Below, piece by piece: positions 4,936 to 59,193 of a DNA stretch of 64,000 nucleotides. How positions within the stretch are numbered: the stretch's first letter is position 1; every line of letters begins with the position of its first letter. The DNA is from Fischerella muscicola PCC 7414. Lineage in GTDB: Bacteria; Cyanobacteriota; Cyanobacteriia; Cyanobacteriales; Nostocaceae. Under the pieces are notes generated by a model. That model saw only the letters and a program-made list of their open reading frames with translations, did not search any database and was not told the origin of the DNA. A program made the position numbers and the translations under genes. Where the stretch lies: assembly GCF_000317205.1 (NCBI RefSeq), contig NZ_AJLK01000150.1:1-64000 (forward strand), given 5' to 3'.

Positions 4936-5355
4936 CAATAATATCCTAAAAAAGCAATAATCATCTATACAGCAACAATCAAGTTTATATACCTTTAGAT
5001 AGAAGATTTAAAATCCCTATTGAATTCGGCTAGTGGTGTTCAGCCCTAGCAATCCCCCCAATTTCTGCCCTAACAGGCAGCTAGCTGTCTACAACCCAAA
5101 GTAAACCGATGGGTAAAGGTTAAAGATCAAGGGGAAAGGTACTTTTCATCTATAATTAACCCTTTCCCTTTTTCCCCTCTTCTTTACCCTAACCTCTGCG
5201 ATGAGTCTGGTGCTTGTAAGGAAATCAACAGGTGTGAGGGGGGGATAAAAGCTTAAGCAAAAGTCTGAAAGTGCATCTCAACAGATACTTATGCCAAAAG
5301 CGCTAGCTGGGCGTTCTACCACTAGATCCTTTTCTTTCTTCTCTAAGGAGAGCGA
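4936..5355. other. Intergenic region with nested inverted repeats
   Basis: No gene seen. Nested inverted repeats lie at 5111-5189: outer arms GGGTAAAG (5111-5118) and CTTTACCC (5182-5189), inner arms GGGAAAGG (5132-5139) and CCTTTCCC (5161-5168). The inner stem is followed by five T, so it may terminate transcription from the AraC gene. The last 100 bases should hold the promoter of the Dps-like gene, ending in a clear AAGGAGAGCGA ribosome binding site. Confidence 0.45.
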
Positions 5356-15656: not shown

Positions 15657-16051
15657 GACTTTTGCTGGATACACAGTGCTGGTTATGGTGGTTTGCCCAA
15701 CCAGAACGGTTGAACGAGCAAGCGATCGCGCACATTGCTGATGAAACGAATGAATTGTGGTTCTCTGTTGCTAGTATCTGGGAGATAGGCATCAAGGTTG
15801 CGATCACAAAGTTATCATTGCCTGAACCAATTGACAGTTATATTTCTAAGCGAATGGTGCTGTTGGGTTCGCGATCGCTAGAGATTACAGCACCTCACGC
15901 TTTACGAGTAGCTACGTTACCTTTACATCATCGAGATCCCTTTGACAGAATACTGATTGCACAAGCTCAGATAGAAGACATGACGCTGGTAAGTGCTGAT
16001 GCAATATTCGGGAAGTACAGCGATATTTCTATTCTTTGGGCAATCAATTAA
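15653..16051 (+). CDS. PIN domain toxin (VapC-like)
   Basis: A 132-residue PIN-domain ribonuclease. MRLLLDTQCWLWW gives the first acidic residue, SVASIWEIGIK the conserved glutamate, and HHRDPFDRILIAQAQIEDM with LVSADAIFGKY the remaining acidic positions. It starts at GTG 15653 inside the antitoxin stop. It is of the DUF/PIN subtype usually paired with Phd antitoxins. All active-site acidic residues appear present, so the pair is probably functional. It converges with the GH13 gene, overlapping it by 4 bases. Confidence 0.88.
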   Translation: MRLLLDTQCWLWWFAQPERLNEQAIAHIADETNELWFSVASIWEIGIKVAITKLSLPEPIDSYISKRMVLLGSRSLEITAPHALRVATLPLHHRDPFDRILIAQAQIEDMTLVSADAIFGKYSDISILWAIN

Positions 16052-17187
16052 CCTTTTCGATTCACTTGTAACCAGCGATAACCGTATGCTTCTAAGGGGA
16101 TAGAAGACAAATCCCCATCACCATCAAGTGGTTCATATTGTGAATCGCTAAATAAATCAAACAAATACTTGTAATCCTGTACTTGGAGTCTGGCTATACA
16201 TGGCTTGTCCGATAAATTATGCACAGCAAGCGCTGCTTTACCTTCCCAATCACAACAATGAGCAAAGACACATTCAGAGTCTGTCTCTAAAATTTGCCAT
16301 TTACCCCAACCAAACTGCGGACATTGTTTGCGAATCCCGATTACTCGTTCCATCCAGTTAATTAAAGAATCGCGATCGCGCTGCTGTGTTGCAACATTAA
16401 CCCGTTTATACCCATACTCTCCTTCTTTGATCACAGGTTGAGCAAGTGCATCCGGCGAAGCTGTGGAGAAACCCCCATTATGTGCATCCGACCATTGCAT
16501 CACTGTACGAACACTGTCTCGACCCGGAAGCGACAGGTCATCACCCATACCAATCTCTTCCCCGTAACGTAACAGTGGTGTACCAGGTAGACTAAATAAC
16601 AGACTGTAGGTGAGTTCGATCCGACGCCGGTCACCTGCTAACATTGCTTCCTGTACTTCTGGGTTCGCAATGTTTAAATCTGGCTGTTCTTTGTAAAAAT
16701 GATGCAGATAGTATGCCCCAGCTTTTTCGTCGTACTCCCAAATACTTTCCTGCTCACCAGGAAAGTTAATCTGTTCTGGTTGTGTTTGGGGTGGATTTTC
16801 CACCCAAACATAGTAGTCATGGTACTTAGAGTTTTTGTCAGAACGTGCCGCTTGAAACCAAGGATGTAAATTAGATGTATGATTTACTACCAAGTCAATC
16901 ATTACCCGAATCCCACGTTCCCCAGCCTGATGCATAAACTCAACAAAATCCCCCAAAGTTCCTAGTCGGGGGTCTATGTTGTAATAATCCATAACATCGT
17001 AGCCGTTATCCCGATTAGGCGAAGGATAAAAAGGTAGCAGCCACAAACAAGTAATTCCCAATGCAGAAAGATAATCTAGACGGCTGGTCAGTCCTTGAAA
17101 ATCACCAATTCCATCACCATCTGAGTCCATGAATGTTTCTACATCCAAGGAGTAGAAAATAGCATTTTTATACCACCAGTTTCTCAT
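16048..17187 (-). CDS. GH13 alpha-amylase/trehalose-synthase-like protein lacking its catalytic core
   Basis: A 379-residue protein that aligns by eye with cyanobacterial GH13 enzymes of over 500 residues, but in two halves. Residues 1-178 contain the N-terminal barrel with region I (MIDLVVNHTSNLHPWF, 96-111) and end at DLNIANPEVQ. At about 179-184 the sequence jumps to MLAGDRRRIELTYSLLFSLP and the C-terminal part (LRYGEEIGMGDDLSLPGRDS). The missing middle normally carries GFRxDA with the nucleophilic aspartate, the acid/base glutamate and the NHD motif, so the enzyme cannot be catalytically normal. The frame is preserved, so it may still be translated. Confidence 0.82.
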   Translation of the reverse strand: MRNWWYKNAIFYSLDVETFMDSDGDGIGDFQGLTSRLDYLSALGITCLWLLPFYPSPNRDNGYDVMDYYNIDPRLGTLGDFVEFMHQAGERGIRVMIDLVVNHTSNLHPWFQAARSDKNSKYHDYYVWVENPPQTQPEQINFPGEQESIWEYDEKAGAYYLHHFYKEQPDLNIANPEVQEAMLAGDRRRIELTYSLLFSLPGTPLLRYGEEIGMGDDLSLPGRDSVRTVMQWSDAHNGGFSTASPDALAQPVIKEGEYGYKRVNVATQQRDRDSLINWMERVIGIRKQCPQFGWGKWQILETDSECVFAHCCDWEGKAALAVHNLSDKPCIARLQVQDYKYLFDLFSDSQYEPLDGDGDLSSIPLEAYGYRWLQVNRKG

Positions 17188-18022: not shown

Positions 18023-18593
18023 AGTTATCTCCATTGATTCAATAGAAATTTGCAAGTAAAAGATTTAATTCTGATTTTTATATTCTTTAAATTTTTTCAA
18101 TAACAACTTATAGTCTTACTTTTGCTTATCTGTTGAGAGTTATCATTCAGAATAGATCAAAACATTGCTTTAATTCCAGCTTAAAATCCGATAGTGAAAA
18201 ATTAGTGAATCATAGAAGGTAATTTTAAAAATTACTACTTAAGAAATAGTATTCACAGCATTTCTGAGATTTTCTAATTTTCTGAGGGCTTATAAATTAA
18301 AACTACAGACTGATAAATATTTAATTCTGAAGAGAGAAGCTAAAATCAAATCTATCTTGCCTAGCTAAGTTTTAATATTTGAAAATAAAAGATGATAGCC
18401 ATCCAAAATCTAAATTTGTCTAACTATAAACTGTGTACAATCAAATACATAAGAATAACTTATTAATTCGAATTTTTGATTGCGAAACATTAAGGAATAT
18501 TGCAATTACGTGAAATCCTAAGAGACACAGAGAAATGAGCCAAAAGTCCGTGATACTATGCTTTCGGTAAATGTGAAGATTGGGAGTAGACCT
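18023..18593. other. AT-rich divergent promoter region
   Basis: About 570 bases between the minus-strand exported protein gene and chlP. The sequence is AT-rich with many oligo-A and oligo-T tracts. It must hold both promoters. I see no hairpin, repeat or small ORF that I can defend. Confidence 0.4.
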
Positions 18594-19903: not shown

Positions 19904-20125
19904 AGTCGTTGAGGAATATACTGATTTTTCTACGGCGGGCTGTCTTGAAAATAGTGATCAGGGATGAAACCTAACAGCAAACCCATAATCCATCTGTGTG
20001 CCATGAGTGTACCTTACGGAAGTCTATGAGCGCGTCTACGTCTATTTCTTATGCCCTGGTTGTACGCAATTCCCCCTGGGGTTCTAGCTTGTAATTTTTG
20101 GCGATCGCTCAAGTTTTCTATCTAT

Positions 20126-20149
20126 TGTCTATCTTTGGGTAGATAGACA
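20126..20149. promoter_or_regulatory. Inverted repeat, candidate operator of the XRE regulator
   Basis: TGTCTATCT (20126-20134) and AGATAGACA (20141-20149) are perfect 9-base arms around TTGGGT, 22 bases before the first possible start of the XRE gene. The same TCTATC core also occurs at 20118-20123 and inverted near 20171. The position suggests autoregulation; this is inference. Confidence 0.5.
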
Positions 20150-20170
20150 TCGCATTATATCTAACTACAA

Positions 20171-20473
20171 ATGATAGATATAAAGCTCTTTATACCTGTT
20201 TTTGCAATGGCTCTGAAGGTAAAAAGGCTGAGTGCAGAGCAACCGATGATTGGCAAACTTGTTCGAGAACTGCGGCAAGCGATGAACTTATCCCAAGAAA
20301 AATTTGCTCAGGAATTAGGGATGACCTTTCCCACGATTAATCGTTGGGAGAATGGACACGCTACACCTTCGCCTCTAGCATTGAAGCAAATTGAGATTTT
20401 ACTGCAACAGTTAGGCGATCGCGGCGAGGCATTGCGAACAAAATATTTTCCAGAAGATAAGTCAGAATCATGA
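20171..20473 (+). CDS. XRE-family helix-turn-helix regulator
   Basis: A 100-residue protein whose central part is a Cro/C1 HTH: LRQAMNLSQEKFAQELGMTF then PTINRWENGHATPSPLALKQ. The start could be 20171 or the ATG at 20207 (MALKVKRLSAEQ); neither has a good ribosome binding site. Its stop overlaps the start of the hybrid sensor gene (ATGA at 20470), so the two are translationally coupled. That suggests the regulator controls, or acts with, the sensor. Confidence 0.8.
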   Translation: MIDIKLFIPVFAMALKVKRLSAEQPMIGKLVRELRQAMNLSQEKFAQELGMTFPTINRWENGHATPSPLALKQIEILLQQLGDRGEALRTKYFPEDKSES

Positions 20474-23379
20474 GTGCAGCGCAACCAGGGGCGATTAGTG
20501 AAGAAATTTTCGCGGGTGACAGTGAGATGGCTCAGTTAATGCGATCGCACGACTGGTCAAAAACGCCCCTCGGCCCTGTAGAACATTGGTCGCAGAGTTT
20601 GAAGATTGCGGCCAATATTTGTTTGAACTCGCGCTTTCCGATGGTGATTTGGTGGGGTGAAGAGTTGACCCTACTTTATAACGATGCATGGCGACCGATT
20701 TTAGGCAACAAACATCCGCAAGCATTGGGCAAACCAGGACAGGAAGTTTGGTCAGAAATTTGGGACATTGTTGGCACACAACTACGCAGCGTCCTCACAA
20801 CTGGCAAAGCAACCTGGTCTGATGATCAGCTGTTATTAGTCTATCGCTACGGATATACCGAGGAAGCCTACTTCACCTATTCCTACAGCCCAATTTTTTT
20901 GGAAACAGGAGAAGTGGGGGGAGCCTTTACAGCAGTTGCTGAAACAACCCAGCGAGTTGTAGGAGAACGTCGATTAGCCACCTTACGGAATTTAGCTGCT
21001 CAAACTGGGCAATCCAAAACGGTCGAGCAAGCTTGTCAAAAGGCGATCCAGACCCTTTGCGAAAACTCATCTGACATTCCTCTTGCCCTGCTTTATCTGT
21101 TGAATTCTGAAGCAACCCAGGCAACCTTACAAACACAAACTCCTGCTCAAATTCAGCCTGTGATTGCCCCAGCAGAACTCGACCTGACTCAACCGAGCGA
21201 TCCGTTGACACAAGCACTTGCTTGTGTCGTAAAAAGCAACGAACTGTTTGTATTAGAGAATCTGACCCAATATTGGGGAGATTTCCCAGTGGGACCCTCA
21301 CACCTTCCTCTTCAGCAAGTGATCGCCCTGCCGATTCGAGCTTCAACCCAAGATTCAATGGTGGGGGTGCTGGTACTGGGAGCCAATCCCTATCGGGCTT
21401 TAGATGAAGATCAAATGCAATTTTTAGAGATGACAACGGGGCATATTGCCAACGCGATCGCCAGTGCCCGCGCCTACGAAGAAGAACGCAAACGAGCGGA
21501 AGCATTAGCAGAACTTGATCGGGCCAAAACTACATTTTTCAGTAATGTTTCCCACGAATTTCGCACGCCGCTAACGCTGATGTTGAGTCCGTTAGAAGAG
21601 TTGTTGGCAAACGAGGGCGTGATTCCACCCGAACAACATCAGCAAATTGAACTCATCCATCGCAACTCATTACGGTTACTAAAACTAGTCAACACACTAC
21701 TAGATTTCTCGCGGATCGAAGCCGGACGGGTGCAAGCGGTTTATGAACCGACCGATTTAGCCGCATACACCGCAGAATTAGCCAGCGTGTTTCGCTCAGC
21801 GATCGAGGGATTAGAGGCAGGAGCAGACGACTACTTGACAAAGCCCTTTTCTGCCCGGGAATTACTGGCGCGAGTGGAAGCAAACTTGAAACTAGCTCAA
21901 CTGCGGCGAGAAACAGCACAAAAAGAGCAGGCACTACGACTCGAAGCAGAAAGCGCCAAGCAAACTGTCGAAACCATTTTGTCAAGCATCAGTGACGGGT
22001 TTTATACACTCGATCGCCACTGGCGTTATACCTACGTCAATGATCGCTACTGTGAAATGGCTAGGATGGAGCGGGAAGCTCTTTTAGGTAAAAGCATTTG
22101 GGACTTGTTTGCTGATGCCGTTGATACCGATATTTATTTTCAATTCCAGCGGGCAATGAGTGAGCAAGCACCCCTCCAGTTTGAGTATCTCTACGTCACC
22201 TGGAATCGTTGGTATGAACACCGGGTCTACCCCTCGCCTAATGGACTAACGGTTTTTATTGCTGAAATTACTGATCGCAAGCAGACAGAAGCCGAAATTC
22301 AACAGCTTAATCAGCAACTCACCCACCGCCTCAACGAACTAGAAACTCTGTTTGATTTGCTACCTGTTGGCGTGGCGATCTCCCAAGACCCAGAGTGCCG
22401 CATAATTCGCGTTAATTCCTACCTATCTGAACTGATTCGCCTTCCAGTCGATGCCAACGCCTCCCAATGTGCGCCGCCCGAAGAACGCCCTGTGTATCGC
22501 ATTTACCGGGATGATCAAGAGATAGCCACCGCAGACTTGCCTATGCAGTATGCGGCATTTCACAACACAGTCGTGCGGGATGAAGTGGTAGACATTGTAC
22601 ATCCCGACGGAACCGTGATCAAGCTGCTGTGTTACGCTTCCCCGTTACTGGATGAGCAGGGCAATGTCAGAGGTGTGATTGGAGGATTTGCAGACATCAC
22701 TCAGCGCATCCAAAAAGAAGTTGCCCTCAGAGAACAACGAACATTACTAGAAACCATTTTGCGTCAGGCAGCCGATGGCATTATCGTGTGTGACGCAACA
22801 GGAAAGCTGACTTTTGTCAATAAGGAAGCCAGACGACTGGCACAGCAAGACCCAGACGGTACAACCCTCGATCTCAACTTGCTGGATTGGGGCACTGCTT
22901 ATGATACTGATGGAAATCTCATTCCTCTAGAAAGTTACGCCATCTCCAAAGCCTTGCGGGGAGAAGTTAGCAATGGCTTTGAAACACGTATGGTTCGTCG
23001 GGATGGTAGTTACTATGACATACTGGTGAGTGCAGCGCCTTTATGGAACGAGAAGCAGGAGATTATTGGTGCTGTTAACACTTTTATTGATATTAGCGAT
23101 CGCAAACGAACTGAACAAGCCCTACGCCGCAGCGAAGAACGCTTCCGCATCAGTCAAGAACTCTCCCTCGATGCCTTCACCATTCTCGATAGCGTGCGTG
23201 ATCAAAGCGGCAGGATCATTGATTTTGTCTGGACTGTGAGTGCGATCGCCCTCACTGCCTATGCCGGGGAATATGACCAACAAAAAGCTCTAAAGGCTGG
23301 ATTTCAACAACATATTCCTAAACCTGTAGAGCCAGAAGTGCTGGTGAGTGCGATCGCCACTTTGGTAAATCAGAAGTGA
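20470..23379 (+). CDS. Hybrid sensor histidine kinase with two internal domain deletions
   Basis: A 969-residue protein. Order: PAS-like domain (about 15-150), GAF (about 170-335), HisKA (about 345-435, phospho-acceptor histidine 362 in SNVSHEFRTPLTL), then at about 444 an abrupt jump to the last 40 residues of a receiver (GLEAGADDYLTKPFSAREL). Three PAS domains follow (about 495-605, 620-750, 755-880). A fourth PAS begins (DAFTILDSVRDQSGRIIDFV) but jumps at about 924 into the tail of another receiver (IALTAYAGEYDQQKALKAGF). Both HATPase domains and both receiver aspartates are missing. GCGATCG occurs at both joints (21799-21805, 23242-23249). It cannot autophosphorylate as it stands. Confidence 0.85.
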   Translation: MSAAQPGAISEEIFAGDSEMAQLMRSHDWSKTPLGPVEHWSQSLKIAANICLNSRFPMVIWWGEELTLLYNDAWRPILGNKHPQALGKPGQEVWSEIWDIVGTQLRSVLTTGKATWSDDQLLLVYRYGYTEEAYFTYSYSPIFLETGEVGGAFTAVAETTQRVVGERRLATLRNLAAQTGQSKTVEQACQKAIQTLCENSSDIPLALLYLLNSEATQATLQTQTPAQIQPVIAPAELDLTQPSDPLTQALACVVKSNELFVLENLTQYWGDFPVGPSHLPLQQVIALPIRASTQDSMVGVLVLGANPYRALDEDQMQFLEMTTGHIANAIASARAYEEERKRAEALAELDRAKTTFFSNVSHEFRTPLTLMLSPLEELLANEGVIPPEQHQQIELIHRNSLRLLKLVNTLLDFSRIEAGRVQAVYEPTDLAAYTAELASVFRSAIEGLEAGADDYLTKPFSARELLARVEANLKLAQLRRETAQKEQALRLEAESAKQTVETILSSISDGFYTLDRHWRYTYVNDRYCEMARMEREALLGKSIWDLFADAVDTDIYFQFQRAMSEQAPLQFEYLYVTWNRWYEHRVYPSPNGLTVFIAEITDRKQTEAEIQQLNQQLTHRLNELETLFDLLPVGVAISQDPECRIIRVNSYLSELIRLPVDANASQCAPPEERPVYRIYRDDQEIATADLPMQYAAFHNTVVRDEVVDIVHPDGTVIKLLCYASPLLDEQGNVRGVIGGFADITQRIQKEVALREQRTLLETILRQAADGIIVCDATGKLTFVNKEARRLAQQDPDGTTLDLNLLDWGTAYDTDGNLIPLESYAISKALRGEVSNGFETRMVRRDGSYYDILVSAAPLWNEKQEIIGAVNTFIDISDRKRTEQALRRSEERFRISQELSLDAFTILDSVRDQSGRIIDFVWTVSAIALTAYAGEYDQQKALKAGFQQHIPKPVEPEVLVSAIATLVNQK

Positions 23380-23597
23380 GGCAATACTTTTCGGAAGAAG
23401 CTAGCAAGAGTTTTCTTTACTATAGGGTGAGTACTGCCCAGTGTGTTACACTCTTGTTTATTTACGTGAGCCGATTTTTTTCTGCCTATTACCTATATTC
23501 TCACTAGAGGCGAAGCCTCCCAGTGTCGTGTACCCAAACTTTAACCAATTTACAAAACAACAACCAACAACCAACCCCCAACCCCCAACCAACCAAT
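23380..23597. other. Intergenic region between the sensor and ahcY
   Basis: A convergent spacer. The first part has no recognisable element; the last 60 bases are C/A-rich STRR (CAACCAACAACCAACCCCCA) leading into the ahcY terminator. Confidence 0.5.
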
Positions 23598-57174: not shown

Positions 57175-59193
57175 ATGACGATGTTCCTTACAGATTCCGC
57201 CGACATCACCAGGATTTATTTCTCTTCAAGGTTGAATCTGAAGCAGCGTAGTGAGTTGGGTCAGTTTTTGACCCCTGCCCCAATTGCCCGTTTTATGGCG
57301 GGACAATTTAGTAGTCTATCGGATCACATCAGTCTTCTAGATCCTGGAGCCGGAGTTGGGTCATTAACTGCTGCTTTCGTAGAGCGGTTATTAGCAAATC
57401 CTAACGAGGTTAAGAGTTGCTTCATAACAGCATGTGAAGTTGAATCAGCCTTTCTGTCCTCTTTGAAGCAATGCCTTATAGAGTGTTGTGCAGCTTTAAA
57501 GAGCAAAGGAATTCAAGCAAATTATTGTTTGCGTGAAGAAAGCTTTATAGAGGCTTTTCCCCAAATAAATTTGCCGCTTTTTACTACATCATCTATAAAT
57601 TTTACTCATGCGATTCTGAATCCACCTTATAAAAAGATTCACAGCCAATCCGTCGAAAAGAAGATCCTTTCCAAGATTGGAATTGAAACTGTAAATCTAT
57701 ATAGTGCATTTGTTTGGCTTACTATATTACAGCTTGCCGAGGGTGGAGAAATAGTTGCAATTACGCCTAGAAGTTTCTGTAATGGTTCTTATTTTCGTCC
57801 TTTTCGTAAAGCTTTCCTGGAAAGCATGGGACTTAAAAAAATTCATATTTTTGAGAGCCGTTCAGCAGCTTTTGCAGAAGATGAGGTATTGCAAGAAAAT
57901 ATTATTTTTCATGCTATCAAAACAAAAAGCAAGCCTGATTATGTAGAAATTGCTAGTAATTCTGGAACCGAGTTAGATAAGTTTTCAGAATTAAGACATG
58001 TTCCTTATAGCGAAGTCGTTGAAGCCAATGACTCTGAGAGTTTTATTCATATTGTGACAAACTCTCTTGAAGATTGTTTGAGAGTGCAAATGGATAAGTT
58101 CTCATCTACTTTGGATGAAATTGGTTTAGAAGTTTCTACGGGTCCAGTTGTCGATTTTCGTCTCAAATCAGCTTTGAGAACTTACTTGGATGAGCAAAGT
58201 GTTCCACTACTCTACCCAGAAGCTATGAAGGCAGGGAAAGTTTTATTTCCACCCAGCAATCCTCGTAAGGCGATCGCTATTGAACAAAACCAACAAACAA
58301 GCAAATGGTTAGTTCAATCTGGTTGGTACGTTTTGATAAAGCGTTTTTCTGCTAAGGAGGAAAAGCGTCGTGTTGTTGCTGCTGTCTGTTCTCCTTTAGA
58401 TGCACCAGCAATAGGTATAGAGAATCACCTAAACTACTACCATGCTAAAGGTAAGGGAATGAACGCTGATCTGGCACGAGGTCTAGCAGCATTTCTCAAT
58501 TCAACTTTATTTGATCATTACTTCCGGCAGTTTAGTGGGCATACACAAGTCAATGCAACAGATTTACGTAGAATTAAGTACCCCTGCAAAGATGATTTAA
58601 TCCGACTAGGAAGCCAGATTGGTGATTTTCACTTTGATCAAGAGCAACTTGATCAGGTTGTACATAAAACTTTGTCGATTATGACTGAAGCAATCAATGC
58701 AGTTCAGGCTAGTAAACGAATTGAGGAAGCACTTGCAATTCTCAAAAATATTTCTGCTCCTAGAGAGCAACAGAACGAACGATCAGCACTTTGCTTACTC
58801 GCATTGGCAGACATTCGACCTGAAACACCTTGGAATCAAGCAACAGCACCAAGACGCGGAATTACAGAAATGATGGATTGGTTTCGCGATCACTATGGTA
58901 AACAATACGCACCAAATACACGCGAAACAGTTCGACGGCAGACGATGCACCAGTTTGTACAGATGGGGATAGTCGTTGAGAATCCAGATCGACCAGATCG
59001 ACCGATTAACAGTCCAAAATGGTGTTATCAACTTCATCAACAAGCATTGTCACTTCTTAAATCCTATGGCTCTGAGCAGTGGGAAGAGGCTCGTCGAAAT
59101 TATGTTGTTTCAGTCACAAATTTATTGCAGGCTAGGAATCGCAACATACCAATGATTCCCGTAACTTTGCCTGACGGTCAAGCCATTCAGTGA
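57175..59193 (+). CDS. DNA adenine methyltransferase fused to a truncated BsuBI/PstI-type endonuclease
   Basis: A 672-residue protein. Residues 1-510 are a gamma-type N6-adenine methyltransferase: LGQFLTPAPIARFMAGQF, SAM motif LLDPGAGVGSLTAAF (about 54-68), catalytic NPPY at 149-152 and NATDLRRIKYP in the target-recognition part. Residues about 515-660 match the N-terminal helical domain of BsuBI/PstI endonucleases (LLALADIRPETPWNQATAPR, YAPNTRETVRRQTMHQFVQM). The last residues (MIPVTLPDGQAIQ) are the first strand of the endonuclease catalytic domain, where the frame ends. The catalytic core is gone, so this acts at most as an orphan methyltransferase. Confidence 0.87.
   Translation: MTMFLTDSADITRIYFSSRLNLKQRSELGQFLTPAPIARFMAGQFSSLSDHISLLDPGAGVGSLTAAFVERLLANPNEVKSCFITACEVESAFLSSLKQCLIECCAALKSKGIQANYCLREESFIEAFPQINLPLFTTSSINFTHAILNPPYKKIHSQSVEKKILSKIGIETVNLYSAFVWLTILQLAEGGEIVAITPRSFCNGSYFRPFRKAFLESMGLKKIHIFESRSAAFAEDEVLQENIIFHAIKTKSKPDYVEIASNSGTELDKFSELRHVPYSEVVEANDSESFIHIVTNSLEDCLRVQMDKFSSTLDEIGLEVSTGPVVDFRLKSALRTYLDEQSVPLLYPEAMKAGKVLFPPSNPRKAIAIEQNQQTSKWLVQSGWYVLIKRFSAKEEKRRVVAAVCSPLDAPAIGIENHLNYYHAKGKGMNADLARGLAAFLNSTLFDHYFRQFSGHTQVNATDLRRIKYPCKDDLIRLGSQIGDFHFDQEQLDQVVHKTLSIMTEAINAVQASKRIEEALAILKNISAPREQQNERSALCLLALADIRPETPWNQATAPRRGITEMMDWFRDHYGKQYAPNTRETVRRQTMHQFVQMGIVVENPDRPDRPINSPKWCYQLHQQALSLLKSYGSEQWEEARRNYVVSVTNLLQARNRNIPMIPVTLPDGQAIQ

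Follow-up and report, generated by a model that had tools for sequence, protein, structure and literature searches.

How does a hybrid histidine kinase gene that lacks its catalytic parts stay open over 969 codons, and were those parts removed, as originally predicted, by recombination between HIP1 octamers? The window analysed here is a stretch of 64,000 nucleotides (C150:1-64000) from a cyanobacterial draft genome of 6.9 Mb (270 contigs, 99.99% complete). On its forward strand, the stop codon of a gene for an XRE-family regulator overlaps the start of the kinase gene at 20470. The ORF listing and the translation bear out the 969 open codons announced for 20470-23379, with zero internal stops. 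The features of the locus are given below; L078 is the corresponding locus of the best relative, Chlorogloeopsis fritschii PCC 6912.

20171..20473, + strand: XRE-family helix-turn-helix regulator, 100 aa (HTH_3, E=2.4e-14)
20470..23379, + strand: internally deleted hybrid histidine kinase (ORF of 969 codons, Pfam, alignment)
20470..21800, + strand: N-terminal part kept up to joint 1 (GAF, HisKA); 85% DNA identity to L078 across 20123-21807
21799..21807, + strand: joint 1, GCGATCGAG; L078 7332-8318 missing
21801..22280, + strand: tail of receiver 1 and next PAS; 84% DNA identity to L078 8319-8798
22281..23088, + strand: PAS region absent at the same place in PCC 6912, with the linker repeat GATCGCAA on either side
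23089..23234, + strand: beginning of the last PAS, truncated by joint 2; 78% DNA identity to L078 8782-8927
23230..23236, + strand: joint 2; L078 8929-11748 missing
23236..23379, + strand: tail of receiver 2, with two GTGAGTGCGATCGCC copies; 81% DNA identity to L078 11742-11890

At E<=0.001, Pfam identified one GAF domain, PAS families, HisKA (residues 352-419, E=4.4e-17) and Response_reg (residues 443-470) in the 969-aa protein. The Response_reg match covers just positions 84-111 of the 111 in the profile, which agrees with the predicted jump at about residue 444 into a receiver tail. The second predicted jump, at about 924, was recovered by alignment: the tail of receiver 2 (about 924-969) has no Pfam call and aligns to the C-terminus of the full-length relative. 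Zero HATPase families were found at the same threshold, versus two in the PCC 6912 relative, and the acceptor aspartate is missing from both receivers, the first being reduced to profile positions 84-111 and the second to its tail. Pfam and the alignment to the relative thus confirm that both HATPase domains and both receiver aspartates are missing. The protein contains SHEFRTPL, the phospho-acceptor region. Because the ATPase and the acceptor aspartate are both missing, the product would be unable to phosphorylate itself or its own receivers, and the receiver tails are presumably fragments incapable of the receiver fold.

A contig scan of genomes yielded four relatives, among which PCC 6912 was the best. 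There, L078:5998-11889 encodes 1,964 aa, longer than the 1,500-1,700 residues that had been expected of a full-length kinase, with two HisKA, two HATPase_c and two Response_reg stretches. The DNA matches fall into four blocks, namely window 20123-21807 with L078 5654-7338 (85%), the two central blocks listed above (21801-22280 and 23089-23234), and window 23230-23377 with L078 11742-11890 (81%). Relative to PCC 6912, segments of 987 bp and 2,820 bp are missing, each divisible by 3, so that the claim of two in-frame excisions from a full-length kinase stands. The 987-bp segment corresponds to HATPase 1 and most of receiver 1. The 2,820-bp segment corresponds to the remaining part of the PAS, more PAS domains, HisKA 2, HATPase 2 and most of receiver 2.

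Like the window gene, the PCC 6912 kinase has an XRE gene upstream, a PAS/GAF/HisKA N-terminus (88% aa identity, residues 1-446) and the same receiver tails. Unlike it, the PCC 6912 kinase has both HATPase domains and both receivers complete, lacks the PAS region 22281-23088 at that place, and has other gene neighbours. The kinase of a second genome, G019 (L069, 1,293 aa), also resembles the window gene over residues 1-450 (81% identity; 77% over 1-473 by tblastn) and in the receiver tail and PAS (69%), whereas it has both kinase cores and the XRE gene upstream of it is broken. The window XRE gene is intact, and its product shares 86% aa identity with that encoded upstream of the PCC 6912 kinase (dS 0.51, dN 0.06). 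XRE relatives with 44-55% identity lie near family kinases at loci such as L072, L029, L031, L013 and, in the window's own genome, L077 on contig C198. Compared with PCC 6912, the PAS domains at 22281-23088, which the original prediction had missed, are extra at this place in the window. Because GATCGCAA is common to both boundaries of this region (22264-22280 and 23089-23103) and to the single PCC 6912 site, PAS units may also be added or removed in frame at linker repeats in this kinase family.

The polarity of the change was sought in all three genomes of the genus that were examined (the window's own, G001 and G002). Both catalytic cores are missing from the window gene, and relics only were found in G001 and G002. 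These 3′ relics lie, like the window gene, beside the SAHH gene and share its receiver tail; unlike it, almost the whole gene is gone, with the tail left in both and an aspartate segment in addition in G002. The G001 relic matches window 23276-23420 at 89%, which covers roughly the final 100 bp of the gene together with some DNA beyond it. The G002 relic matches from window 23324 onward; directly upstream of the match, a segment reads DVGMLEINGYML, followed by a stop, and aligns with the acceptor Asp region of PCC 6912 (84% over 44 bp, E=5.1e-5). Because the G002 relic at the same locus still has this receiver aspartate segment, the short form is derived: the ancestor of the genus had a fuller receiver including the Asp segment, and the shorter forms came from it.

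Erosion of XRE-kinase genes also reaches beyond the window locus, because the more distant gene of G204 (L140, G204:C1:1938500-1945500), a genome from another genus, is broken too. Here, an XRE gene is accompanied by a 358-aa ORF, which matches residues 11-309 of the window protein at 43%, and by a 962-aa ORF in another frame, which begins after the first HATPase. Like the window locus, it combines an XRE gene with an N-terminal PAS/GAF part and with downstream parts that belong to the same family, and the first kinase core is lost. Unlike in the window, the loss (GAF end, HisKA 1 and HATPase 1) shifts the frame, and the second core and both receivers are kept intact.

In-frame and out-of-frame deletions were further tallied over about 80 kb of contig C150 compared with G002, with stretches of contigs C13, C72, C103, C42, C138 and C73 set aside; the 11 block junctions inspected held too few such deletions for statistics. 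Beside the kinase, there is one large clean deletion in a coding frame on the window's side, in an amylase-like gene (16048-17187, - strand) that the original prediction had likewise passed over. Compared with G002, an in-frame stretch of 489 bp (163 codons) is missing; the joint lies at 16643-16646 and has no HIP1-like word nearby. The deletion takes out GFRIDAAPF and LLAEANV, which correspond to GH13 catalytic regions. The gene of G002, in turn, is frameshifted closer to its end. This parallel fits ordinary gene loss in the genus, not specific to HIP1 or to kinases.

The two genomes also differ elsewhere. At a 672-aa ORF of the window (57175-59193, + strand), 1,671 bp are missing in G002 with a clean junction (57828/59500). 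Near 18390-18413, a 420-aa ORF of G002 is wholly missing in the window. At 5002-5009, G002 has about 750 bp between two copies of GAAGATTT, which is single in the window; this pattern resembles an insertion into G002 accompanied by duplication of the target site.

The hybrid histidine kinase gene of the XRE-kinase pair has probably been eroded recently, being dispensable and in the course of loss. The alignments show that the gene has common ancestry with full-length kinases like that of PCC 6912, and the deletions would have arisen by ordinary illegitimate events at short microhomology, with HIP1 lying beside one end of each without recombining. The gene would be dispensable in the genus and undergoing loss, with two siblings already down to 3′ relics. 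The present species would have been caught earlier, with a frame that has stayed open because the deletions happened recently and each removed a multiple of three bases. The clean-jointed block matches to PCC 6912, the aspartate segment of G002, the sibling relics, the single occurrence of each joint 30-mer, the stops that a neutral ORF would gather, the broken G204 gene and the similar loss in the amylase gene support recent erosion. Counting against it, the remnant has no stop, frameshift or nonsynonymous excess, the XRE partner is intact, and two in-frame deletions would be expected by chance in about 1/9 of cases if the frame were irrelevant.

Between the window gene and PCC 6912, three blocks have dN/dS values of 0.11, 0.14 and 0.12, and the tail of 43 codons has 0.24. 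With G019 as outgroup, and with 51 ambiguous differing sites and a 47-codon PAS block that has no outgroup left out, the window branch carries 42 nonsynonymous and 75 synonymous changes versus 47 and 82 on the PCC 6912 branch (Fisher p=1.0). Translation and these branch counts reveal no stops, frameshifts or nonsynonymous excess in the remnant. At most about 9-13% of the window branch could have been neutral (95% upper bound). In simulations, the share of runs in which a neutral ORF was still open fell from 52% at 0.005 substitutions per site to 9% at 0.02 and to 0/1,000 at 0.1; at 0.1 substitutions per site, a neutral ORF of the length of the kinase remnant has about 11 stops. For the 28 window genes that have a strong match in G002 and were kept (two more were dropped for short alignment), dS has a median of 0.177, or about 0.09 per branch. 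Overall, the kinase gene was constrained until recently, or still is. Because the retained codons look constrained, either the deletions are recent or the remnant is kept.

If it is kept, the short protein would be functional: a kinase-dead PAS/GAF/HisKA sensor might dimerise and act on the overlapping XRE regulator, or its HisKA histidine might be phosphorylated in trans by another kinase. The open frame, a ratio of nonsynonymous to synonymous changes equal to that of the full-length branch, the intact overlapping XRE gene and the retention of SHEFRTPL, the phospho-acceptor region, are all consistent with this. However, a recent deletion explains the constraint equally well, the gene is lost in both siblings examined, and the receiver tails presumably cannot form the receiver fold. 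In addition, the junction is absent from every other protein opened among the matches listed. A search of 388 genomes of the order with the junction peptide gave matches at E<=1e-12 in 99 of them; among the matches listed, at least 15 besides the window's own begin at residue 1 or 2 of the query and extend beyond residue 80. Ten of these 15 were opened and the same junction was found in none: nine run into HATPase, and in the tenth (L139) the two halves lie about 1 kb apart. L144, and L141-L143 with similar matches, also run on into HATPase, and L140 and L145 match the right half of the junction peptide alone. A kinase-dead scaffold that acts on the XRE regulator may exist, though recent loss is the likelier explanation, and a functional remnant kept as such seems unlikely to us.

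Homologues with the same short architecture, which the original prediction had named as an observation that would speak against a deletion, were not found among the junction matches opened. An old designed short architecture was rejected, since none of the opened matches, among those listed, has the junction. Among the titles listed by a literature search, none dealt with the window locus.

The joints themselves bear on a bolder possibility. At joint 1, the left and right matches to L078 overlap by 7 bp, and GATYGAG is common to both ends in PCC 6912, with HIP1 just on the left. At joint 2, the two ends in PCC 6912 have TGGAC in common. Simple crossing at this word would put the frame out by one base, and the window is one base short versus the right flank of PCC 6912. 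Microhomology as a mechanism fits joint 1 and is less clear for joint 2, which may be a non-homologous join or include a frame-restoring second change. In the boldest form, joint 2 would be a TGGACT microhomology deletion that broke the frame and was then mended by the loss of one base. The result would be a maintained kinase-less PAS/GAF/HisKA sensor directly controlling the overlapping XRE regulator, a one-component-like switch made via domain loss. We consider this quite unlikely; if true, a TGGACT deletion with a one-base correction would imply selection for the open frame.

HIP1 words are indeed where the original prediction had placed them, GCGATCG at 21799 and GCGATCGC at 23242-23249. 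The 64 kb contain 57 HIP1 octamers versus a mean of 0.17 in 100 shuffles, and bases no more than 8 bp away from a HIP1-like heptamer make up 5.7% of the window kinase gene. The locus also illustrates that, in a genome rich in HIP1, the presence of the word beside a joint is no proof that it recombined. The full-length relatives were inspected for HIP1 at both ends of each missing segment. The left end of joint 1 reads GCGATCGAG in both PCC 6912 and G019, and the right end reads CGGATTGAG / CGGATTGAGGG in PCC 6912 and CGTGTAGAG / CGTGTAGAGGGG in G019, with no HIP1 in either. The left end of joint 2, readable in PCC 6912 only (no match was obtained in G019), is TGGACGTATGTA, again without HIP1. 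Its right end in PCC 6912 is GGTGGACTAGTAAAGGCGCTCGC, with a degenerate GCGCTCGC where G019 has the HIP1 word GCGATCGC. The right-hand HIP1 of joint 2 falls in the receiver motif AIALTAYA, and GCGATCGCC occurs in 7 of the 12 non-own rows for this motif; the right-side HIP1 of G019 is a native receiver motif. The word was thus found on the left only at joint 1, in two relatives, and not on the left at joint 2, and the proposed recombination between HIP1 octamers is not supported. As main mechanism it was rejected, HIP1 being seen in the full-length relatives at one end only of each lost segment.

HIP1-directed removal of the domains, with HIP1 or its CGATCG core marking where the DNA breaks or is exchanged at one end or at both, is very unlikely. 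Some published indication exists for HIP1 in site-specific and illegitimate recombination (PMC4390886), and two of the four deletion endpoints have a HIP1-like heptamer no more than 8 bp away. Given the density in the PCC 6912 gene (7.1%), the probability of this by chance is about 0.027, a weak excess chosen post hoc. On the other side, the word is at one end only of each lost segment in the full-length relatives where both ends are readable, and the amylase joint in the same window has no such word nearby.

The 15-base repeat at 23236 and 23344 was also confirmed, with exactly two occurrences in the window. The copies lie in the same receiver tail, 108 bp apart, and the PCC 6912 words differ at both places. 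A template switch mediated by HIP1 might have carried GTGAGT from the second 15-mer place to the first, but the preceding valine codon is also present in PCC 6912 and G019, so that coincidence suffices and the repeat was rejected as a recombination scar.

Each joint 30-mer is single in the window's own genome at up to 3 mismatches. When this genome, the locus aside, was compared with L078:7339-11741, matches of more than 200 bp reached at most 71% identity, higher identity being confined to matches of 113 bp or less; the missing DNA would thus be present elsewhere in the assembly only as paralogues. Since the other contigs of this assembly, which is 99.99% complete, lack the missing DNA and neither joint 30-mer recurs in the genome, misassembly is unlikely, and a full gene hidden by a wrongly joined contig, a concern raised by the 270 contigs of the draft, is highly improbable given also that words common to the joint ends are 7 bp or less and that the locus is eroded in two siblings too.

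Recent erosion remains the preferred reading, and the locus is most likely a snapshot of a gene being lost, not a new kind of protein. It provides a base-resolved loss series, from the full-length gene of PCC 6912 through the window gene, gutted in frame, to the bare relics of two siblings. A remnant proven to be maintained would offer a natural case of a kinase converted into a non-catalytic sensor.
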